A DNA stretch of 50,850 bases from a virus: positions 1 to 50,850 of IMG/VR virus record IMGVR_UViG_3300027733_000072, one strand, 5' to 3'. Both the position numbers and the translations under genes were made by a program. A model generated the notes under the pieces. The model saw only the letters and a program-made list of their open reading frames with translations, was not told the origin of the DNA and did no database searches. Shown here one piece after another: positions 3,552 to 26,791 of this stretch (position 1 is its first letter; each line of letters starts with the position of its first letter).

Positions 3552-4125
3552 TCTCTGATAGTATCAGATTGAGAGGCTTGTTTTTAAGTATTGCTTTAAC
3601 TCCAGAATTTAAGGCACCTTCATAATCAGATCTCTGACTATCCCCAATCATAAGTAATTGTTTAGGTTGTAAACCGCTATGTTTTATGACCATTTCAAAG
3701 GCTTCGGGTTGGGGTTTTCTGTATCCAATATCACAGGAAAAGAATATCTTATCAAAGTATTTATCAATACCTAAATTAAACACACACTCTTTATATGGAG
3801 TAGCAATATTTGATAATAGATAAAGTTTATACTTTTTAGATAGTGTCTCTAATACTTGAATAGTATCATCAAATAAGTGTGTTGACTCAATTTCTAATTT
3901 TATATCATGTTCTAATTGTGATGTATATACAAATTGGCCTGGTTTTATTTCTTCTACAATCTCTTGTAGATATGAATAATTTTTGGTCATGACTTTATCC
4001 GCCCAATAGTTCATTTCTTCTTTGGTTAGACCTATATTCTTAAATAAGTTTAGATAAGGTCTAGCTTTATACTCGGAGTATAATAAAGTACCATATAAGT
4101 CAAGTATAATAGATTTAGTTTGCAT
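3544..4125 (-). CDS. HAD-superfamily hydrolase
   Basis: A 193-residue HAD phosphatase/dehalogenase-type enzyme. Motif I is DLYGTLL (nucleophile D9, with Tyr at the usual second Asp, as in haloacid-dehalogenase-like members). Motif II is LLSNIA, motif III is the Lys in GYRKPQPEAF, and motif IV is MIGDSQRSDYEGA. The cap region lies between motifs I and II. Substrate cannot be read; phage HAD proteins often act on nucleotides or sugar phosphates. The start overlaps the end of the peptidase gene by 11 bp, indicating an operon. Confidence 0.85.
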   Translation of the reverse strand: MQTKSIILDLYGTLLYSEYKARPYLNLFKNIGLTKEEMNYWADKVMTKNYSYLQEIVEEIKPGQFVYTSQLEHDIKLEIESTHLFDDTIQVLETLSKKYKLYLLSNIATPYKECVFNLGIDKYFDKIFFSCDIGYRKPQPEAFEMVIKHSGLQPKQLLMIGDSQRSDYEGALNSGVKAILKNKPLNLILSEIN

Positions 4126-5209
4126 ACTCGGCGATTTTTGATAGTTTTGTATAGTCTTTACCTAATTTAACATTAGACTTCAAATGTGAATATGGTATAT
4201 ATTGTAGTTCGGGAATAAAATTTATTAAATCCTGTCTATTTCCTATAAAATCATATGACTCATGCTCTTGACAATAACAAGAAGTGCCATCCCAAATTAT
4301 TAACTTTGGTGTATATCCTTTTTGTAACAACATCTTGTTGATTAAGTCTTTTTCACACTCTATCCAAGTTTTAGATATATACATTTTTTTAGTAACACTA
4401 TCTTCTGAGATATATGTAAATACACTTTCTGTATATTCATCATCAAGAACTTCAACTTCATCTTCTTCCCAGATGCCACAATCATCATCACCTGGTTGTC
4501 TGAATATAGGAAGAGATTCCCAATCAATTTTAACAACGGCTCTACACAATCTAGATAAAAATTCAATATCTTGTATCTCATTGGTTGTGTGTTCATTCCA
4601 ATATCCAACTGATATGTTTGTACATTCATGAACTAAATCAACAAATTGTGCTGAATCCGTTAATATGCCAGTATCATCTGGTTCCATTTCTAATCCTAGA
4701 CCGGTTGAATTTAGTTCATCGGCTAATGCTTGAGCAAATTCATCTGAACAACATCTACCACAAAACTGTTCGGTAATAATTGATTTGGTGCCTCTTCGGT
4801 CAAATGAGACTACTTTTGTAATGTTCATCCAATCAAAAGTCATTGATAAGTTTGAGCTACCAATACACCCAACTTCCTCACCTATAAAAAAATAATATAG
4901 TCCTGGTACTTTTTTCTCAATCATATAGAGTAGAACGGTCATTCCGGCTTTATCATCAGCACCTAAGATGGTTGAGCCATCAGTCATTATCAGATTATCT
5001 GTTTGAACGTGTTTAACAGGCTTATCATATTTACAAGCCGTATCTAAGTGGCAAGTAAACATAGTGGTGAAATTATCACCAATTGTCATAAAATAGTTAC
5101 CATGTTGGTCTTTACTTATTCCTTTTGGTAGAAATTTTCTAATTTTAGATTCTGTTCCATATGGAACTGTCTGACTGGTCAATTGTAGGAACTTTCTTCT
5201 AACTCTCAT
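4115..5209 (-). CDS. Zinc peptidase of the M20/M28/M42 type (copy 1)
   Basis: A 364-residue co-catalytic metallopeptidase. The metal and catalytic residues are visible in order: TCHLDTA (H54, D56), GADDKAG (D85), GEE (E111, E112), SFDRR (D137) and NEHT (H207). Enzymes of this clan are aminopeptidases, di/tripeptidases or carboxypeptidases. An acidic linker (about residues 243-256) leads to a C-terminal region of about 110 residues not seen in copy 2. No signal peptide, so it acts in the cytoplasm or is packaged. A paralogue lies at 12637. Its phage role is unknown. Confidence 0.8.
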   Translation of the reverse strand: MRVRRKFLQLTSQTVPYGTESKIRKFLPKGISKDQHGNYFMTIGDNFTTMFTCHLDTACKYDKPVKHVQTDNLIMTDGSTILGADDKAGMTVLLYMIEKKVPGLYYFFIGEEVGCIGSSNLSMTFDWMNITKVVSFDRRGTKSIITEQFCGRCCSDEFAQALADELNSTGLGLEMEPDDTGILTDSAQFVDLVHECTNISVGYWNEHTTNEIQDIEFLSRLCRAVVKIDWESLPIFRQPGDDDCGIWEEDEVEVLDDEYTESVFTYISEDSVTKKMYISKTWIECEKDLINKMLLQKGYTPKLIIWDGTSCYCQEHESYDFIGNRQDLINFIPELQYIPYSHLKSNVKLGKDYTKLSKIAEYAN

Positions 5210-6652: not shown

Positions 6653-6688
6653 AAAAAGAGAGTTAAATTAATTTAACTCTTTTTTTTA
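6653..6688. terminator. Bidirectional terminator
   Basis: AGTTAAAT and ATTTAACT form the stem, extended by AAGAG/CTCTT and followed by a run of eight T. It sits between the convergent glycosyltransferase and the hypothetical gene at 6686. Confidence 0.85.
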
Positions 6689-7261
6689 TTTACATTCTAC
6701 TCTTATTTTCTCATATTTTATAAGTAATTTAAACATTTTTTCATATTCTGATTCAATGTTAATTACTTGTCTTTGTATCCATTTATTATTATTAAAGAAC
6801 TCAACAACCATTCCGTTTTTTAGGTCTTCTTTTTTCTTTGGGAAAAAGTATCTTTTCTTTTCTACAAATGAAAAAGAAACACCGTTATATAGATAAGTTT
6901 TATTTTTTAAGTCGGAGTCATAAATGGCAACACTCATTGGTTTTTCTGTTCCGGTAGATTCTACTTTTGTTGCTATTTCATCGCCTTTATATTTAACTAT
7001 AACAGCATCTTGGTCAAATTTATCCATTAAATAAATCGCATCAAATCTTAGAGAATCATTATCATCATTAGAGCTTATTGCAATAAAAGATTTTTCATAT
7101 TTATTCTCATAATATCCGGTTACTGGTATTATGGTATAATCTTTAGAGTATAAAATACTACAAACCTTCTCACAATTTAAATTATTATCTGAAGGTAGAT
7201 TATCACTTTTTTCTGGTGATATGAGTAAGTAGGAAATATTTGGATCTGATAGGTTAAACAT
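6686..7261 (-). CDS. Hypothetical protein, possible DUF3293-like domain
   Basis: A 191-residue protein. The pattern GYYENKYEKSFIAI, then FDQDAVIVKYKGDE, resembles small phage and bacterial proteins in which a G-x-Y...E-x-SF strand is followed by a Q-D-x-V/I-L-Y/K strand (DUF3293-type). The C-terminal half adds another domain with PKKKEDLKNGMVVEFFN. No enzymatic motif identified. Convergent with the glycosyltransferase across a shared terminator. Confidence 0.6.
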   Translation of the reverse strand: MFNLSDPNISYLLISPEKSDNLPSDNNLNCEKVCSILYSKDYTIIPVTGYYENKYEKSFIAISSNDDNDSLRFDAIYLMDKFDQDAVIVKYKGDEIATKVESTGTEKPMSVAIYDSDLKNKTYLYNGVSFSFVEKKRYFFPKKKEDLKNGMVVEFFNNNKWIQRQVINIESEYEKMFKLLIKYEKIRVECK

Positions 7262-7463: not shown

Positions 7464-8687
7464 TTATATTATTTTTTGAAATTCTTTTTCTAAGTTTTTG
7501 TGGAAAATCTTTTCAACCACATCTCTATATTTTGTATTACAAATAATACTATCATGTATAGTTATTAAATTTACCTCAGGGTATATATACATGATCTCCT
7601 TTACAATTTTGTTAAAAATTAGATTGCTTTCTAAATTTTGAAGGTCATGTGCTAAAATTCTATAATCACCATGTTCTTTTTTGTAGATTTTGATAAATTC
7701 ATGTATTGTAGGAAATAATGATTTAAATAAATCATCACCTTTGCTTTTGAAGTTCTTACCAAAGAAAACCTTATAAATCATTTCTTTAACATTTTTTCTA
7801 TCTCTATACTTGGAATTATCCATTAAGTATTGATATAACTTACCATTATATGTCAAAAATTTGAAAAGTTCAAATTCATCAGTATTGACAATTATTAAAC
7901 CATCGGATTCTATTAACTTACAGAGAAATAATGGTTGACTATTTTTGATATCAATTTCACTGGTTTCTTCTCCATTAATAAGAAGACAATTTTTTCTAAT
8001 AAAAGATTTTAAAATAGTAAAATTTGTGTGCATTCTGCCATAGTTATCAAAGTGATAGAATATGTGTTTATCATTTATACATTCAACACTATACTTATTT
8101 CTATTATAGATATCTACATCTTGTAGAGTTGAATCTAAGAAAAATATAGCCTTATCAAATTGAATTTGAACATGAAATAAATCATCAACTAATTTTCTCT
8201 TTACATCTGGATTGATTGTATTACTGTCTATATCTTGTTTCTCAATTAAAGATACAGCATTCTTGTATTTCTTTAATAGGATTGAATCCTCATTTTTATA
8301 TCGAGTGATTTTACCATTAATAATCTTTTCATTTAATTTATAAATTCTGGCATTTTTACCTTTTTGGTGCTTTTTTACTAGTTTAAGAATGTCTTTAGAA
8401 ACAAGATAGTCCATATAATAGTTATATAGATAACCATATTTTTCTTTAAGAACTACTGATGATAGATTAAATAAGTTATCTTTCTTGAAGTAATATTTAA
8501 GTAATAAATTGTGTGTGATATCAATTAGATAAGCTGTTTTAAGCTTAGTTTCTTTGTATGTGAAGTTTTTATTAAGAGATTCTTGAATTAGAAGTTCGGG
8601 TAGAAATTGAACACTGTATCTTTTTGACTCTAACTTTTTTCTTATGTTGTATTTAGATTTCGGTTTATACTCTTTTACTTGGATCAT
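7464..8687 (-). CDS. Divergent polymerase of the family-A / single-subunit RNA polymerase superfamily
   Basis: A 407-residue protein with a palm-domain motif set at its C-terminal half. NYGRMHT (R218) matches the GR element before motif A. Motif A is EIDIKNSQPLFL (D246), comparable to DYSQIELR of Pol I. Motif B is RKNVKEMIYKVFFG with R297, K301, F309, G310: exactly the R-x3-K-x7-(Y/F)-G spacing of Pol I and T7 RNA polymerase. Motif C is ITIHDS (H378, D379), closest to the IHDS of T7-type RNA polymerases. Residues 1-200 are unlike known exonuclease or promoter domains. Template and product type (DNA or RNA) cannot be decided from sequence. Confidence 0.7.
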   Translation of the reverse strand: MIQVKEYKPKSKYNIRKKLESKRYSVQFLPELLIQESLNKNFTYKETKLKTAYLIDITHNLLLKYYFKKDNLFNLSSVVLKEKYGYLYNYYMDYLVSKDILKLVKKHQKGKNARIYKLNEKIINGKITRYKNEDSILLKKYKNAVSLIEKQDIDSNTINPDVKRKLVDDLFHVQIQFDKAIFFLDSTLQDVDIYNRNKYSVECINDKHIFYHFDNYGRMHTNFTILKSFIRKNCLLINGEETSEIDIKNSQPLFLCKLIESDGLIIVNTDEFELFKFLTYNGKLYQYLMDNSKYRDRKNVKEMIYKVFFGKNFKSKGDDLFKSLFPTIHEFIKIYKKEHGDYRILAHDLQNLESNLIFNKIVKEIMYIYPEVNLITIHDSIICNTKYRDVVEKIFHKNLEKEFQKII

Positions 8688-8814: not shown

Positions 8815-8988
8815 TTAAATTTTAGATAATATTTTTTTAATTCGGTGTCTTCTAACTGTTAATAAAACAAGTAAACTCTCCAATCTTTGGACTAAATCAA
8901 TCCCGTGTTGTTTCTCTAAGTCTTCAATCATAGTTTTTGTTACAGTTGCATTTACTGTAAATAATTCGCCTATATTACTTTTTTTCAT
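8815..8988 (-). CDS. Small hypothetical protein (57 residues)
   Basis: Begins MKKSNIGELFTVNATVTK and overlaps the end of the upstream gene by 14 bp, typical of the tight packing here. It is basic at the C-terminus (TVRRHRIKKILSKI) and contains a predicted helix DLEKQHGIDLVQRLESLL. Possibly a small nucleic-acid binding protein; no family recognised. The 126 bp after its stop up to the polymerase-like gene hold nothing recognisable. Confidence 0.6.
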   Translation of the reverse strand: MKKSNIGELFTVNATVTKTMIEDLEKQHGIDLVQRLESLLVLLTVRRHRIKKILSKI

Positions 8989-10282
8989 ATTCTCCCTTTC
9001 CGCCTTTGTTACCTTTCTTCTTTTCTTCTTTACCTTTTTCTAATTCGGTATATACATCTGGGTAAACATTTTCTTCCGCATCCACATCATATTTAACATC
9101 AAACCATTGTGAGAAGTCAATTAGTCCACTTCTGGTTAATTCAATCTCACTTTTTTTGTTAAAGAATTCATCAATTTTTTCTTGTATCATTTGTACAAAA
9201 TTGTTAAATATGTTAATTGTTCCTTCTGTGAATACGCCAATTGGTTTCTTTCTCTTCTTATTGAAACTACCTAAAATTACTTTGAAAATATATTCAAACT
9301 TTTTATCCTCTGAAATGAATTGTTTAGTCATTTTATTTGGAATCAACTCTGTGTTAATTCTAAATTTATCTTTATCAAAGAATTCGGGTACAGTAAATTG
9401 AAAATTAGCAATATCATCTTTTACTTCCGATAAGTACATATTGAATAACTTACAAATTAAATAGATATAAACTTCATCTCTTTTATTTCCCTTTACTTTA
9501 ATTTGATTAAAGTCTATTGATTGACAGAAATTCAAGAAATTAACTAATATAAGTGTGTAAATTTCAACAAAGTCTGTTGAGTTTGTGTCCGATATTCTTT
9601 TATATAATGGATTCAAAATTTCAAATGATACATCTTTACCATCAATTCTTATTATTAACTTCTCAACATTTTTTTGAAAGTCTTCATTCATCAAAAATGA
9701 ATTTTGAGTTTGTGGACTTAATATTTTATAGAAGAAGTAAGAAAATGACTTCTCGCCAAATACATATTCTAAGTCTGACTCACTTGTGTTTAAGAAATAT
9801 TTAATTGCTTCTATAACTTTTTCATTTAGTTTGCCTTTGAAAATTACCGGAATTACATCAACATCAAGTAATCTAGCATATTCTTCTAATTCATCAATGG
9901 TATAATCAAATTTGTTACCTTTGCAGATAGAAGTTAAGACTAAATTATTTTTAGGAACTCTATTGTATTCAATATTTGCTGGTTGATTATCTGGGAAAAA
10001 TTCAAAACAAAACCACCATTTTTTATTAATCAATCCTTTAACTCTGTTATCAAGATTATTAAAAAAGCTAATAGCATTATTATAATAATTTTGCATAGCT
10101 AAATCAATCATATTGATAGGATCCGATGATAATGATTTTGATTTAATTGTAAAATTGGAACCATTCCAGTTTACATATATTTTACTACCTTGTATATCTT
10201 CAAATATTATTATCTCATTATTAAAGATATCATTTAATACAGACTCGTCTTGAATTTCGTTAAGTTTCATTAGTTTAGACAT
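8975..10282 (-). CDS. Ligase/nucleotidyltransferase-like protein, probably degenerate
   Basis: A 435-residue protein. The segments IYVNWNGSNFTIK (35-47) and WWFCFEFFPDNQPANIEYN (89-107) resemble motif I (K-x-D/N-G) and motif III of ATP-dependent RNA/DNA ligases found in large phages. The position of the nucleophilic lysine is N38, so adenylylation would not be possible if the alignment is right. The middle is helical and the C-terminus is a lysine/glutamate/glycine tail. It could be an inactive ligase-like scaffold or a different phage family. A 57-codon gene follows with overlap. Confidence 0.5.
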   Translation of the reverse strand: MSKLMKLNEIQDESVLNDIFNNEIIIFEDIQGSKIYVNWNGSNFTIKSKSLSSDPINMIDLAMQNYYNNAISFFNNLDNRVKGLINKKWWFCFEFFPDNQPANIEYNRVPKNNLVLTSICKGNKFDYTIDELEEYARLLDVDVIPVIFKGKLNEKVIEAIKYFLNTSESDLEYVFGEKSFSYFFYKILSPQTQNSFLMNEDFQKNVEKLIIRIDGKDVSFEILNPLYKRISDTNSTDFVEIYTLILVNFLNFCQSIDFNQIKVKGNKRDEVYIYLICKLFNMYLSEVKDDIANFQFTVPEFFDKDKFRINTELIPNKMTKQFISEDKKFEYIFKVILGSFNKKRKKPIGVFTEGTINIFNNFVQMIQEKIDEFFNKKSEIELTRSGLIDFSQWFDVKYDVDAEENVYPDVYTELEKGKEEKKKGNKGGKGEYEKK

Positions 10283-10586: not shown

Positions 10587-11656
10587 GGTATATAAAAGAA
10601 TATAATGAATATCACCCAAATGAAGATACGGTTAAGAGATGGTGTGACTATTTAGATAATAATTATCCAATCAAACATGATAGTGATAAATTTATAGTGA
10701 TAGATGATAAATCATATTTTTTAACTGGAATTTTATTTAATAAAGGTAGATTGGTCAATAAAATATTTTCGGATATATTCTATTCAGATAAAATGAGTGG
10801 TTCGAAAATAGATAGACCAAGTTTGAGAAAGGCTATTAAAAATTGGGTTGATATAAATAGTGATAAATCCGTAAATGAAAATTTAGATAAATTAAATTTT
10901 AAGCCTATTATAGAAAGTTTAAGTAATCAAAAAAAAGAATACTACTATCGAATATCAGCTCCTAAATATAATGAATCGGTTGAATATGATGAAAATCCAT
11001 ATAATATGTTAAATAAAATTCGCAATTTAATTTCACCGAGTAATCCAATTTATAAATCAGTAAATAACGATGATAATGTAATATCATTTACTGTTAATAA
11101 AAAGGTATTAGATGATTATCCTGATCGAATGCGTGGTGATGATTTAAGCATTAAGTTTATAAAGGATGAATATTTTAGAGTAAAATATATTAGTAGAAAT
11201 GCTTTTAACTTTAAGTACTTCGAGTGTGACCAATTTGAAGGTCTTATTCAGTTACTTAAAGATATGGGATTAAAATTAAATGAAAGAGTTATGGAATCTA
11301 AATTAGATAGACCAAATTATAAAAAATTGGATATTGATGGATTTATAGTATATCAAGGAAAAGACGCTAAATCAAACGATTATGTGACATTTGAATTATC
11401 AGATGATGAAGACTATTGGTTACATGCTCATAACTTCCCAGGATCACATTTATTAATAAAAATAAAAGATAAATTACCACAAATTGAAACTATTAAAAAA
11501 GTAGCTGAACTCGCTGCTAAAAACTCAAAAGCTCCTAATGGAGATGTTGTAGTAGTTTGGTGTAAAAAGAAATTTGTAAAAAAGGAAATATCAATGAATA
11601 TTGGTCAAGTAAAAGTTGATTACATTAATTCAAATAAAATAACTATTGTAAAATGA
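10583..11656 (+). CDS. NFACT-R (DUF814, RqcH-type) domain protein
   Basis: A 357-residue protein. Residues about 245-357 form an NFACT-R domain: GKDAKSND (259-266; family GRN/K-x-x-QND), YWLHAHNFPGSHLLI (278-292; family DLWLH...PGSH), AAKNSKAPNGDVVVVW and GQVKVDY near the end. In bacteria this domain is part of RqcH, which binds obstructed 50S subunits and recruits tRNA-Ala for C-terminal Ala tailing. The NFACT-N and coiled-coil parts of RqcH are absent; residues 1-240 are an unrecognised domain starting MRYIKEYNEY, which fits the head-targeting pattern. The last 20 codons are duplicated at the end of the next gene, the mark of a homing-endonuclease insertion. The tmRNA lies 3.2 kb downstream. 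Confidence 0.82.
   Translation: MRYIKEYNEYHPNEDTVKRWCDYLDNNYPIKHDSDKFIVIDDKSYFLTGILFNKGRLVNKIFSDIFYSDKMSGSKIDRPSLRKAIKNWVDINSDKSVNENLDKLNFKPIIESLSNQKKEYYYRISAPKYNESVEYDENPYNMLNKIRNLISPSNPIYKSVNNDDNVISFTVNKKVLDDYPDRMRGDDLSIKFIKDEYFRVKYISRNAFNFKYFECDQFEGLIQLLKDMGLKLNERVMESKLDRPNYKKLDIDGFIVYQGKDAKSNDYVTFELSDDEDYWLHAHNFPGSHLLIKIKDKLPQIETIKKVAELAAKNSKAPNGDVVVVWCKKKFVKKEISMNIGQVKVDYINSNKITIVK
11594..11656 (+). repeat. Recoded 3' end of NFACT-R gene, copy 1
   Basis: Encodes MNIGQVKVDYINSNKITIVK. The same peptide with substitutions is encoded at 12562-12627. Synonymous changes are frequent, so the DNA is more diverged than the protein. Confidence 0.7.
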
Positions 11657-12627
11657 ATTTTGTAGATTTTAAAATAGCATCGAATACTATATTTAATAAT
11701 AAATATGATTACACAAAGTCAATTTTCATTAATTTAAAGGTACCTATTATGATATCATGTCCAAAACATGGAGATTTTAAAAAAATGCCATATCAACATA
11801 TCAACAGAAAAAGTGGATGTAATTTATGTTATAAAGAAAATAGAAAAAATAATAAATCACATAGAATTTATTTTAAGGATATTTTAATAGAATTTAGAAA
11901 AGTGCATGGATATAAATATGAGTATAATGAATTATCATATATTAATACATTAACAAAAATTGAAATAACTTGTAAAAAACATGGTATATTCAAGCAGACC
12001 CCAAAACAACATAAAAATGGATATGGATGTCAGATATGTGGTGGTTCTAAAAAGTTATCCAATGATGATTTCATAAACAATAGTAAAAATATACATGGTG
12101 ATAAATATGATTATTCAATTACTAAATATGTAAATATTAACACAAAAGTAAAAATAATATGTAATAAACATGGTGAATTTTATAAAGTGCCAAAATTACA
12201 TTTGAGTGGAAGTGGTTGTCAAAAATGTAATATTAGTTCTGGTGAGAATTTAATATTAAATATTTTAGAAAAATATAAAATAGAGTATATCTATCAAAAA
12301 AAATTTGACAATTGTAAATTCATTAAAAGTTTATTTTTTGATTTCTATATACCTAAGTATAATATTTGTTTAGAGTTTGATGGTGAACAACATTTTAAGC
12401 CAATTGATCCGTGGGGTGGATATAAAAATTTAGATGTTATTAATAAAAGAGACAATATTAAAAACAATTGGTGTTTAGAAAACAATATAATTTTGTTTAG
12501 ATTTTCAGATAAGAAAACTTTAGAAGATGATATGATAGAAAAATTCATATTAAAAATAGGTATGAATCCTGGACAAGTTAAGGTTGATTATAACAATGCT
12601 TATGAAATAACCGTATCTAAAAAATAA
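11653..12627 (+). CDS. Homing endonuclease: DUF723-type zinc repeats plus EDxHD/Vsr-like nuclease
   Basis: A 324-residue protein. Three repeats of about 60-70 residues each have KYDY/KYEY, a C-x-K/P-K-H-G segment and a closing CxxC (C36/C56/C59, C107/C126/C129, C170/C189/C192), as in DUF723 DNA-binding ribbons. The nuclease domain has FDFYIP (D230) and LEFDGEQHF (E241, D243, H247), the pattern of Vsr-like EDxHD homing endonucleases such as I-Bth0305I. Residues 304-324 are not nuclease: they repeat the NFACT-R C-terminus. Start overlaps the upstream stop by ATGA. It uses the AT-richest codons of the area, a sign of mobility. The target is probably the intact NFACT-R gene at this spot. Confidence 0.85.
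   Translation: MNFVDFKIASNTIFNNKYDYTKSIFINLKVPIMISCPKHGDFKKMPYQHINRKSGCNLCYKENRKNNKSHRIYFKDILIEFRKVHGYKYEYNELSYINTLTKIEITCKKHGIFKQTPKQHKNGYGCQICGGSKKLSNDDFINNSKNIHGDKYDYSITKYVNINTKVKIICNKHGEFYKVPKLHLSGSGCQKCNISSGENLILNILEKYKIEYIYQKKFDNCKFIKSLFFDFYIPKYNICLEFDGEQHFKPIDPWGGYKNLDVINKRDNIKNNWCLENNIILFRFSDKKTLEDDMIEKFILKIGMNPGQVKVDYNNAYEITVSKK
12562..12627 (+). repeat. Original 3' end of NFACT-R gene fused to the endonuclease, copy 2
   Basis: Encodes MNPGQVKVDYNNAYEITVSK plus one Lys. It keeps the P-G-x-V typical of the NFACT-R family, so it is probably the ancestral end, displaced by insertion of the endonuclease gene. Confidence 0.7.
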
Positions 12628-12636
12628 TATATACAA

Positions 12637-14280
12637 GTGAAGGCAGTTTATTTGACTAAAGGAGCATTAGATATTTTTGATGAAATGGGATATTCACATT
12701 TCTTTAGAAAAATAATAAACGGTCTTCAAGCTTCAATGAATAGAAGTGATGTTCCTTCTTCACAAAGAGTGACTTTGGGAAAAGAAAATATGACTTCTGA
12801 TTTATTAAAGCAAGTTTTAGGAAATGATTATGTGAATGAAGATGATTTAGAAGCATTTGTACACATCTTCAATGAAAAGGCTAATAAAAAGGAAACAAAA
12901 AAAGAAATGGGATTTTACAAAAACCAACAAATAGAACAACAAAGTGGTCCAACTTTAATTAAGTTCACTGATGATTTCTGGCAAATGCTAGATAAGATAA
13001 GACCTGGTAGTGATATTGTTTGGGATTTATACTCTTTGGATTCTAACCCAGATATTAAAAATGTAATGGGTATTACAGAATTAGACATTTCGGATAAAGA
13101 ATGGTATTTTGATATTAAGACCGGATCTAAACCTGGTCAAATTAAAGTGGCTCAGTTTATTAGATACTTCTTCAAAGAAAAGTTTACACAAGACCAAATT
13201 TTTAAATTTACACAATCTTATAATAAAATTATTGGCAAAATATCGGGTAAAGAGTCTAAAGTTGGTAACCTAATTACACCAAGAGAGTTTAAGTACGAAC
13301 CAAGTAATGTTAGAGAAACATTTATTTCACTTGTTACCGAAACTTATCCGATGGGACATGAGGAAGAAGTTGTTCCTTTTATAACACCTGGATTAACAAG
13401 AGATAAATATGGTAATTATTACACAATAATTGGTAACTCCGATACCGCTTTTACTTGTCACCTAGATACTGCTTCTAGAACAAAAGATAAAGTTGGATTA
13501 GTTGGATATAAAAAAGATGGTCAAGATTTTATAATGACGGATGGTACTTCTATCTTAGGAGCTGATGATAAATCAGGAGTTGCTATTCTTATGTATATGA
13601 TTGATAAACAAATACCCGGTGTATATTGGTTCTTCTATGGTGAAGAAAGAGGTGGTGTTGGTTCTGGTAAAGTTGCAATGGACTATGATTCGTATGAATT
13701 TATGAAGGGTATTAAGAAAATGGTATCTTTTGATAGAAGAAATTACTATTCGGTAATCACATCACAGATGGGTATTCCTTGTTGTTCTAATGAATTTGCA
13801 GAGTCTCTTTGTAAAGAATTAAATAAAAGTGGATTGAAATTAAATTTAGATCCAACTGGTGTATTTACGGATTCTGCTAATTTTATTGATATGATTGGAG
13901 AGTGTACTAACGTATCGGTTGGTTATTTTAATGAACACACAGATGATGAATTGCAAAATATTACTTATTTAGAAAGATTGGCTCAAGCTTGTGTAGCAGC
14001 TAATTGGGATAAATTAGAGGTTAAAAGAAAGATCGGATTTGATGATGCAATTGCTAGAAAGTATAATAGATTAATCAAGCAATTTAAGAAATCAATTTTC
14101 TATAATGTTGATAGTATAAAAGGTGAGAATGGTAAATTAGTTATTGATTTAGAAATAAATGATAATGATATTAATCACTTCTATAAAGACTTAACACAAT
14201 TACAACAATTGTTTACTACATATAAATTAGATCCAGATATTAAATTCTACGATGATCATATAAAAATAGAACTTGAATAA
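12637..14280 (+). CDS. Zinc peptidase of the M20/M28/M42 type (copy 2) with two N-terminal phage modules
   Basis: A 547-residue protein starting at GTG. Residues about 220-460 are the peptidase: TCHLDTA (H275, D277), GADDKSG (D310), GEE (E336, E337), SFDRR (D366), NEHT (H434). All metal positions seen in copy 1 are kept and the two are clear paralogues. Residues 1-85 and 105-200 are two copies of a module also found at the N-terminus of the three large proteins at 18516, 22639 and 30966 (pattern: hydrophobic-T/S-x-x-F...LDKI, then DISD, then a helix with FTQDQIFKF). A C-terminal helical region follows. It overlaps the next gene by one base. Confidence 0.8.
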   Translation: MKAVYLTKGALDIFDEMGYSHFFRKIINGLQASMNRSDVPSSQRVTLGKENMTSDLLKQVLGNDYVNEDDLEAFVHIFNEKANKKETKKEMGFYKNQQIEQQSGPTLIKFTDDFWQMLDKIRPGSDIVWDLYSLDSNPDIKNVMGITELDISDKEWYFDIKTGSKPGQIKVAQFIRYFFKEKFTQDQIFKFTQSYNKIIGKISGKESKVGNLITPREFKYEPSNVRETFISLVTETYPMGHEEEVVPFITPGLTRDKYGNYYTIIGNSDTAFTCHLDTASRTKDKVGLVGYKKDGQDFIMTDGTSILGADDKSGVAILMYMIDKQIPGVYWFFYGEERGGVGSGKVAMDYDSYEFMKGIKKMVSFDRRNYYSVITSQMGIPCCSNEFAESLCKELNKSGLKLNLDPTGVFTDSANFIDMIGECTNVSVGYFNEHTDDELQNITYLERLAQACVAANWDKLEVKRKIGFDDAIARKYNRLIKQFKKSIFYNVDSIKGENGKLVIDLEINDNDINHFYKDLTQLQQLFTTYKLDPDIKFYDDHIKIELE

Positions 14281-25297: not shown

Positions 25298-26791
25298 ATG
25301 TTAGTAGATACTCAATATTTAGGCAATAGTAAGCGATTAGTAGTAAGTTATGTTGATAAAACCGGCGATATAAAACTAAAATATTACGAATGGGAGAATC
25401 CCAAAAAATATATTGTTTGTGATGATGATGATAAAGACCGTCATCCAACATTCAAATCTTGGGATGGTAAGAATGTTAAACACGAGGAAGTGAATACTCC
25501 AGATAGATATGCTATCTATGAGTTCTTAGATTCTCTTCCAGAAAAGGAAAAAGAAGAGATATTTGAGTATAATCTTCCAAATATCTACTTTGTCGATATT
25601 GAGACTGAGATTGTTGATGGTTTTCCTGATGCTGAGACAGCTCCCACAAAAGTTCTATCTATTTCAATTGTATATGATGATAAAATCATTCTACTTGGAT
25701 TAAAAGATATGCCAGAAGATATGCAACAGCGTATTAAAGATAATACTAATAAGTACTTTGCTAAGTTTGGTTCTAATTATAAACTAAAATATATCAAATA
25801 TGAAGATGAATTTGATATGATGTATGCTTTCTTTTATAAGATGATTCCAAAAATGCCACTCATCACTGGTTGGAACTTTATTAACTATGACTGGGTTTAT
25901 TTGGTAAACCGTGCTAGAAAACTTAAAAAGTATGTAAATGGTAGAGAGTATGATATTAATCCAGCAGTTGCTTCTTTAACAAAAAGATTAAATAAGGTTT
26001 GGATGTCAAATGAAGAAATGCCAGCTCATAGAATGATTTTTGACTATATGCAGTTGTATGAAATCTGTGACACATCAATTAAAGTAAAAGAATCATCTTC
26101 ATTGGATTTCGTGTCTAGTAAGTTAGTTGGGGTTGAAAAGATTAAATATACAGGTTCACTACAAAGATTGTATGAGGATGACTTTGAAACATTTATGTAC
26201 TATAACGCGGTTGACTCCGTGTTAGTACAAAAGATACATGAATCCAGAAACTATATCTCAATTATTTATGCGATTTCATCACTTGCGCAAATAAAGATTG
26301 TGGATGTTATCTCACAGATGAATAATGCACTTGGTTCTTTAGCTATTACAGAGGGTGTTCTCAGAAATAGATTTCGTGAACAAGAAAATATAGTTTTATT
26401 TAGAGGTGATAAAGAGCCTGGTGAAAATGTTGGTATTGCTGGTGGTTGGGTAAAAGACCCGGTGACTGGTATGAATCAGTGGGTAGTTTGTTATGACTTC
26501 GCTTCTCTATATCCTACAACACAAAGACAATTCTTTATAGCTCCGGAGACATTTGTTGGAATACAAAATCCAAATAATAAAGAATATTGTGATAATGGTA
26601 TTCAAATTGATAAATCAAAACACGTTGTTTGTGTTAATGGTGTTGTATTTGAAAAGAGAAATTCACCAACTCTTAAAATGTTGGAAGATGTTTATGCTGA
26701 TAGAAAGAAGAATAAGAAGATTATGATGAAGAAAAAGGATGAGTTGAAACTTGTTCTAGATGAGATTAAAATGTTAGAAGCTGAGTTATAA
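25298..26791 (+). CDS. DNA polymerase, family B (gp43-like), N-terminal half
   Basis: A 497-residue protein with a complete 3'-5' exonuclease: Exo I FVDIETE (D100, E102), Exo II GWNFINYDW (D198) and Exo III YYNAVDSV (D306). Motif A is CYDFASLYPTTQRQF (D400). The protein then ends after a helical, lysine-rich segment at the fingers; motif B (K-x3-NS-x-YG) and motif C (DTDS) are absent and no frameshifted remnant follows, because the convergent HAD gene begins at the next base. The other half must lie elsewhere, as in T4-type Aeromonas phages with split gp43. No catalytic activity expected without that partner, except exonuclease. Confidence 0.88.
   Translation: MLVDTQYLGNSKRLVVSYVDKTGDIKLKYYEWENPKKYIVCDDDDKDRHPTFKSWDGKNVKHEEVNTPDRYAIYEFLDSLPEKEKEEIFEYNLPNIYFVDIETEIVDGFPDAETAPTKVLSISIVYDDKIILLGLKDMPEDMQQRIKDNTNKYFAKFGSNYKLKYIKYEDEFDMMYAFFYKMIPKMPLITGWNFINYDWVYLVNRARKLKKYVNGREYDINPAVASLTKRLNKVWMSNEEMPAHRMIFDYMQLYEICDTSIKVKESSSLDFVSSKLVGVEKIKYTGSLQRLYEDDFETFMYYNAVDSVLVQKIHESRNYISIIYAISSLAQIKIVDVISQMNNALGSLAITEGVLRNRFREQENIVLFRGDKEPGENVGIAGGWVKDPVTGMNQWVVCYDFASLYPTTQRQFFIAPETFVGIQNPNNKEYCDNGIQIDKSKHVVCVNGVVFEKRNSPTLKMLEDVYADRKKNKKIMMKKKDELKLVLDEIKMLEAEL

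Follow-up and report, generated by a model that had tools for sequence, protein, structure and literature searches.

The polymerase gene and its conserved motifs

The window analysed here is the whole stretch of 50,850 nucleotides of the virus record IMGVR_UViG_3300027733_000072 (IMG/VR). Its minus strand carries the gene of what is, judging from its sequence, a conserved, intact-looking minimal family-A polymerase (Table 1). The sequence-only reading of this DNA had listed a GR element, the motif A aspartate D246, the spacing of motif B and a motif C of the form IHDS with D379, all of which are present: when re-read from the DNA, the motifs are Y216-G217-R218-M-H-T-N-F-T, E244-I-D246-I-K-N-S-Q-P and T376-I-H378-D379-S380. 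An additional motif that was absent from that list, Q350-N-L-E353-S, lies at a position which we take to match the Q849 helix of Pol I.

Table 1. Features of the polymerase gene, its product and its neighbours (positions are those of the window unless another record is named).
Feature	Position	Strand	Remarks
Minimal family-A polymerase (P0001), 407 aa	7464..8687	(-)	ORF, ATG start
N-terminal winged-helix-like domain (predicted), residues 51-118	8334..8537	(-)	Element order H51-68 E73-76 H77-84 H88-97 E101-105 E113-118
GR element, beta-hairpin with template-strand Arg, YGR218MHTNFT	8010..8057	(-)	R218 in 64/64 covering rows
Motif A, D246, EIDIKNSQP; Q251 at the steric-gate position	7932..7970	(-)	D246, S250 and Q251 invariant (n=65)
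Motif B, R297-x3-K301-x7-F309-G310	7758..7799	(-)	K301 invariant (n=65); F309-G310 invariant in 40 phage rows
Q350-x2-E353-S helix, common to TV-Pols	7626..7640	(-)	Q350 and E353 invariant; LLQxxE in both full-length TV-Pols
Motif C, T-I-H-D379-S	7548..7562	(-)	D379 invariant (n=65); next residue S/A/G/C
Upstream neighbour, 435 aa, RNA-ligase-like	8975..10282	(-)	Conserved in 72 loci, always on the same strand
Downstream neighbour, 191 aa, S-adenosylmethionine-lyase-like	6686..7261	(-)	Same cluster in 77/81 loci
Compact family-A DNA polymerase (PolA), 428 aa	LR756511 (L056) 10933-12219		Overlaps the minimal polymerase gene by 4 bases

Relatives of the protein were found in 53 IMG/VR stretches by a single-sequence search and in 143 by a profile search; one of the contigs (L003, 107 kb) carries a copy that is 99.5% identical, and public phage records gave six matches. 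Conservation was read from an alignment of 65 proteins, 40 from phages and 25 from bacterial contigs, whose most distant rows are about 20% identical. D246, S250, Q251, Y285, K301, P326, Q350, E353 and D379 are the same in all 65 sequences, and R218 is kept in each of the 64 rows that cover this position. This spread and conservation exceed by a wide margin what chance would give. Position 297 holds R (40 rows) or K (23 rows), with V or Y in the remaining two, and it is directly preceded by D296 in many rows, not in all. Residue 380, which follows D379, is S in 40 of 40 phage rows and S, A, G or C in the bacterial ones, while residue 309 is F in the phage rows and F or Y (C in one case) in the bacterial rows. 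Scans of the protein against Pfam, NCBIfam and PHROG assign it to no family (PF00476 included), and sequence searches of the PDB likewise returned none.

Predicted fold and N-terminal domain

The AlphaFold2 model computed from the family alignment has a mean pLDDT of 92.8 and a pTM of 0.87. The structure prediction that had been proposed as a check yields a palm, with matches to Pol I and to the mitochondrial RNA polymerase, and not a fold lacking one. According to VIA-align, the model matches Taq Pol I with a Z of 14.7 (259 residues, 3.8 A), Pol theta with a Z of 14.4 and the yeast mitochondrial RNA polymerase (mtRNAP) with a Z of 14.2; since these scores are tied, the fold says that the protein is of family A and says nothing about the sugar of its substrate. 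The first match of Foldseek in BFVD, at 45% identity, is an "uncultured marine phage Putative DNA polymerase I", and a "DNA polymerase" of the Rheinheimera phage Barba31A comes lower down.

In the model, about 260 residues make up the core, which comprises a palm, fingers and a thumb of short length but no exonuclease. The palm and fingers fold carries motifs A, B and C in this order, as in the family-A superfamily. The proposal of a minimal polymerase of the Pol I/T7 RNAP superfamily is thus borne out, with a palm, motifs in register and a phage that has another polymerase. The N-terminus, which had been described as unrecognised, is not featureless: in the model, residues 51-118 follow the alpha-beta-alpha-alpha-beta-beta order of the winged-helix layout. 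Foldseek gives weak matches of this domain to RepL and to a Methanosarcina regulator, none of them significant. From the order of the elements and these weak matches we infer a winged-helix-like domain at the N-terminus.

Relation to divPolA2, TV-Pols and T7-like enzymes

Two groups of small family-A polymerases are described in the literature. The first, divPolA2, is a divergent PolA with a globular N-terminal domain, found in barbaviruses beside a regular PolB, for which a function in repair or as an RNA polymerase has been proposed (Yutin et al. 2024, PMC11348598). The second, the TV-Pols, was described from the same bacterial phyla as those in which relatives of our family occur (Iyer, Abhiman and Aravind 2008, PMC2579912).

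In a comparison by hhalign, the family profile matches that of divPolA2 (the representative AUR84708 of Yutin et al. and its relatives) with an E of 2.4e-10, the GR element, motif A, the Q-helix and motif C being in register. AUR84708 belongs to PHROG 4756 (E 2e-91), and hmmscan gives matches to PHROG 4756, up to 2e-5, for four members of the family; the protein of the window (P0001) gives none by itself in the PHROG scan. In the tree, the eight rows of divPolA2 group together (SH-aLRT 99), apart from the family of huge-phage and bacterial polymerases, which makes the family a sister group of divPolA2 and not a member of it.

The link to the TV-Pols is weaker. The profile used consists of three sequences: MAP_030 of Ma-LMM01, a protein of a Polaromonas plasmid and a partial protein from Calothrix. 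MAP_030 is, in our assignment, which relies on its transposase neighbours, one of the TV-Pols listed in the 2008 paper. The family matches this three-sequence profile over 298 columns, including the N-terminal part, with an E of 3e-5 and a probability of 73%. MAP_030 taken without relatives gives an E of 0.011, and unrelated control proteins give 0.27 and 0.42; these E-values come from pairwise comparisons, not from a database search. Of the hallmarks of the TV-Pols, the hairpin Arg (R218), the two catalytic Asp (D246 and D379) and the RxxxK of the fingers (K301, with R or K at position 297 in 63 of 65 rows) are present; for a further one, a conserved aspartate of the fingers, D296 may be a candidate. 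Taken together, the sequence comparisons suggest that the family is a sister group of divPolA2 among TV-Pol-like minimal polymerases, its membership in the TV-Pols being likely, not proven. The idea of a new branch of the superfamily is therefore given up, since the profiles tie the family to divPolA2 and more weakly to the TV-Pols, both already published.

The match of T7 RNAP to the family profile (hhalign) is confined to 27 residues around HDS, with an E of 0.18 versus 0.27 for a control, and that of a single T7 DNA polymerase sequence is not significant. A T7-like enzyme of transcription was considered and rejected: the sequence link is not significant and the protein leaves little room for promoter parts.

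Residues at the sugar-selecting positions

The serine of HDS had been taken as a hint at RNA synthesis. This hint is lost, as the residue that follows the catalytic aspartate is variable (S, A, G or C in the family; E, S or A in divPolA2), and so does not follow the sugar. Two other positions are more relevant to this question. The fifth residue after the motif A aspartate is a glutamate, the steric gate, in family-A DNA polymerases and a glycine in T7 RNAP; in the family it is Q251, which is aligned without gaps to Glu261 of divPolA2. In T7 RNAP, Tyr639 selects ribose, and its replacement by Phe relaxes this selection; the position of Tyr639 is presumably occupied by F309. The sequence signals for the sugar that Q251 and F309 may give are thus mixed.

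Gene neighbourhood in the phages

The genes of the main clade are arranged in the order 435-aa protein, polymerase, 191-aa protein and glycosyltransferase-like gene. Each of the two neighbours is on the strand of the polymerase in 72 of 72 loci, with gaps from 3 bases upward. This locus is not a replication operon.

The model of the 435-aa protein, a modest one (pLDDT 70), matches T4 RNA ligase 2 over 182 residues (Z 11.3). According to our reading of motif I, an Asp replaces the nucleotide-accepting Lys in 40 of 40 sequences, and it is possible that this RNA-ligase-like protein is a pseudoenzyme. The 191-aa protein resembles PF23780 with an E of 2.8e-6, 0.3 bits below the cut-off; this S-adenosylmethionine-lyase-like protein may possibly have an anti-restriction role.

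Elsewhere in the window, the genes at 4115-5209 and 12637-14280, which flank the polymerase region, both match the PHROG peptidase family 4191, and the gene at 40215-41666 codes for a protein that is TROVE/Ro60-like and contains a von Willebrand factor A domain.

Other replication genes of the same phages

A DnaB helicase is encoded in 13 of 13 records and a family-B polymerase (PF00136) in 11 of 12. The Pfam models DNAG_N and Zn_ribbon_DnaG found no primase above the cut-off in these phages, and a Prim-Pol test also pointed to none, results which had suggested that the minimal polymerase could be the sole primase. This reading was ruled out by the detection of the PHROG 47 primase, which is of the Toprim type, in each of the five complete genomes, with E-values of at most 6e-20. 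That the protein is the main replicase was rejected on the basis of the PolB found in most of the records. Since these phages encode their own primase, DnaB and PolB, the minimal polymerase is neither their sole primase nor their main replicase.

The statement that the phage also encodes a family-B replicase stands in part: there is a family-B gene in the window (25298-26791), but it covers only an exonuclease plus the beginning of the polymerase domain (positions 24-151 of PF00136). In complete relatives, the remaining part of PolB is encoded by a different gene, at a distance of more than 100 kb. It seems that PolB is split in the window, in LR756502, in LR745206 and in others, one gene product (about 500 aa) carrying the exonuclease and the N-terminal part and the other (about 476-487 aa) the C-terminal part. 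In LR756511, a phage of 595 kb, no match to PF00136 was found; this genome has the compact PolA of Table 1.

Huge phages and bacterial mobile elements

The public records that bear the polymerase include LR745206 (634,780 bases), LR756504 (636,363), LR756502 (642,428) and LR756501 (735,411); we infer that these are the four complete phage genomes of greatest length in Al-Shayeb et al. 2020 (PMC7162821), which lie in the Mahaphage clade. In that study, Bacteroidetes are the predicted hosts of phages of that size (PMC7162821). A profile search detected the family in 16 of 395 Bacteroidota genomes (about 4%), two of the 16 having contributed to the profile.

The bacterial relatives have phage-type integrases nearby. 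In the two cases that were checked, the polymerase lies directly behind a small excisionase-like ORF (HTH_17), which in one of them overlaps the start of the polymerase. The plasmids with TV-Pols carry a recombinase, and in one of them the polymerase gene is 11 bases before repA. A role of the polymerase as the only replication protein of such plasmids was discarded, the three plasmids examined also encoding a Rep. One of the TV-Pol-like proteins, that of the Polaromonas plasmid NZ_MG869621.1 (6095-7600), carries the name "Clp protease N-terminal domain-containing protein", a label that seems misleading. Among the neighbours recognised beside the polymerase gene of the phages there is no integrase and no D5-type helicase, two of the gene kinds expected near TV-Pols.

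In the tree, the proteins of the huge phages are united in a single clade (SH-aLRT 95), which also includes one MAG contig. The LR756511 protein is placed, with moderate support only, among the bacterial rows, which suggests a second capture.

Proposed function

We propose that the protein is an accessory primase-polymerase with a winged-helix-like N-terminus, acquired from the mobile elements of the hosts, a reading to which we give a probability of about one half. In this mechanism, D246 and D379 would hold two metals and nucleotides would be joined 5' to 3' on a DNA template, with K301 gripping the incoming triphosphate and R218 contacting the template. The N-terminal domain would grip DNA and bring the small core to single-stranded DNA or to a particular site, and there the core could start or extend short strands before the main polymerase takes over. 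For the huge phages it would be an accessory enzyme, imported from the mobile elements of their hosts, and not the main primase or replicase.

This proposal is supported by the catalytic residues, which are invariant across 65 divergent proteins, by the predicted fold, by the profile matches to divPolA2 and to the TV-Pols, by the primase, DnaB and PolB encoded elsewhere in these phages, and by the coupling to the compact PolA in LR756511, through the 4-base overlap, in a genome with no PolB match. It is also favoured, by analogy, by the context of mobile elements and by the precedent of CCPol, an enzyme that needs its partner MP to start strands (PMC7581432). On the other side, a Toprim-type primase is present in all five complete genomes, so that priming is not obviously needed, and the main-clade gene lies outside a replication operon, between the RNA-ligase-like and the SAM-lyase-like genes. 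As for the parts of the proposal, the comparison of folds does not separate DNA from RNA polymerases, and the winged helix is predicted from the order of elements and weak matches.

The main rival of the primase-polymerase is a DNA polymerase of repair or damage tolerance, which would fill gaps or pass lesions and never start strands. The phages have a primase, a helicase and a main polymerase of their own, the main-clade gene is not in a replication operon, the best structural matches include a repair polymerase, Pol theta (Z 14.4), and Yutin et al. 2024 propose repair or an RNA polymerase for the relative divPolA2 (PMC11348598). This gap-repair polymerase is a serious candidate which we nevertheless consider rather unlikely: the relatives on integrative elements and plasmids have integrases, excisionase-like ORFs or Rep for neighbours, and not recognised repair genes, and the translational coupling with the compact PolA of LR756511 fits replication better.

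A more ambitious version of our proposal is that the family is a third kind of primase, neither DnaG nor AEP: a stand-alone winged-helix primase-polymerase, present throughout the clade of the largest phages, which would start strands at specific sites beside the DnaG-type primase, possibly with NTPs or dNTPs (considering the Gln gate and Phe309) and possibly with the RNA-ligase-like pseudoenzyme. We regard this version as speculative and doubtful.

It is unlikely that the protein is an RNA polymerase, a small and DNA-dependent one whose task would be to transcribe phage genes or to make RNA primers. Its motif C (IHDS) and its R-x3-K-x7-[FY]-G motif are as in T7 RNAP, mtRNAP is tied with Pol I in the comparison of folds, and the usual Glu of the gate is replaced by Gln; however, T7 RNAP is about twice as large, no parts for promoter recognition were identified in the protein, the residue after the catalytic Asp is variable, and Phe309 stands in place of the Tyr639 that is established as selecting ribose in T7 RNAP. 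Last, a catalytically dead or regulatory polymerase-like DNA-binding protein, acting as replication initiator or regulator, is very improbable: the fusion of a winged-helix-like domain to the polymerase domain and the neighbouring RNA-ligase-like protein, which lacks the usual active-site lysine, would fit it, but both aspartates, K301 and R218 are invariant down to about 20% identity, which is unexpected for a dead enzyme.

The family is of a kind (TV-Pol/divPolA2) that is already known and little studied, and whose otherwise-known home is the mobile elements of bacteria; in the literature on divPolA2 and TV-Pols we found no assay of an enzyme of the divPolA2 kind. The largest known phages thus maintain, as a second polymerase, an enzyme type that is in circulation among the mobile elements of the phylum predicted as their host, the Bacteroidota. 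With about 400 residues, close to the minimal core that has been proposed for Pol I and T7 RNAP, the family is a compact and strongly conserved object of study, which could reveal how priming, the synthesis of DNA and that of RNA are distinguished.

Comparison with known systems

Like divPolA2, which has about 430 aa, the protein has minimal palm and fingers with no exonuclease and an N-terminal globular domain instead of the usual thumb, and it is additional to a regular polymerase. The two are only about 20% identical, and divPolA2 forms a separate, supported clade. They also differ in motif A, D-x4-[EHW] in divPolA2 versus D-[IL]-x-[NS]-S-Q in the family, in motif C, FDE, YDE, HDS or HDA versus mostly HDS, and in their carriers: those of divPolA2 are phages of Gammaproteobacteria with genomes of 80-140 kb (Rheinheimera barbaviruses, Vibrio ICP1, Aeromonas phages), those of the family are huge phages.

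With the TV-Pols, the family shares a minimal family-A domain, the Arg of the hairpin, the two Asp, RxxxK and Q-x2-E, and, with a subset of them, an N-terminal domain; the occurrence of TV-Pols in elements with an integrase or a resolvase in Bacteroidetes, Planctomycetes and Verrucomicrobia is a further likeness, to the bacterial relatives. The N-terminal domain of the TV-Pols is described as all-helical (PMC2579912), whereas that of the family is predicted to be winged-helix-like.

CCPol, from SCCmec, the polymerase of a PolA-SSB primase, was placed among the TV-Pols by Iyer et al. and is reported as the only TV-Pol to have been characterised biochemically (PMC7581432, PMC10061031); it acts as a polymerase by itself and, together with its partner MP, makes DNA primers (PMC7581432). 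Like our protein, it is a family-A polymerase of the kind carried by mobile elements and has no exonuclease activity, but it is close to DNA Pol I, with a recognisable PolA domain, and it requires an OB-fold partner for priming. Of the two conserved neighbours of our protein, one is RNA-ligase-like and the other SAM-lyase-like, so that neither was identified as a partner of this kind. Regarding the large enzymes, the fold and the order of the motifs are those of Taq and Klenow Pol I and of the T7 and mitochondrial RNA polymerases. Unlike DNA polymerase I, the protein gives no match to PF00476, is about 10% identical and has no exonuclease domains, and it has Gln at the steric gate and HDS, not HDE, in motif C.
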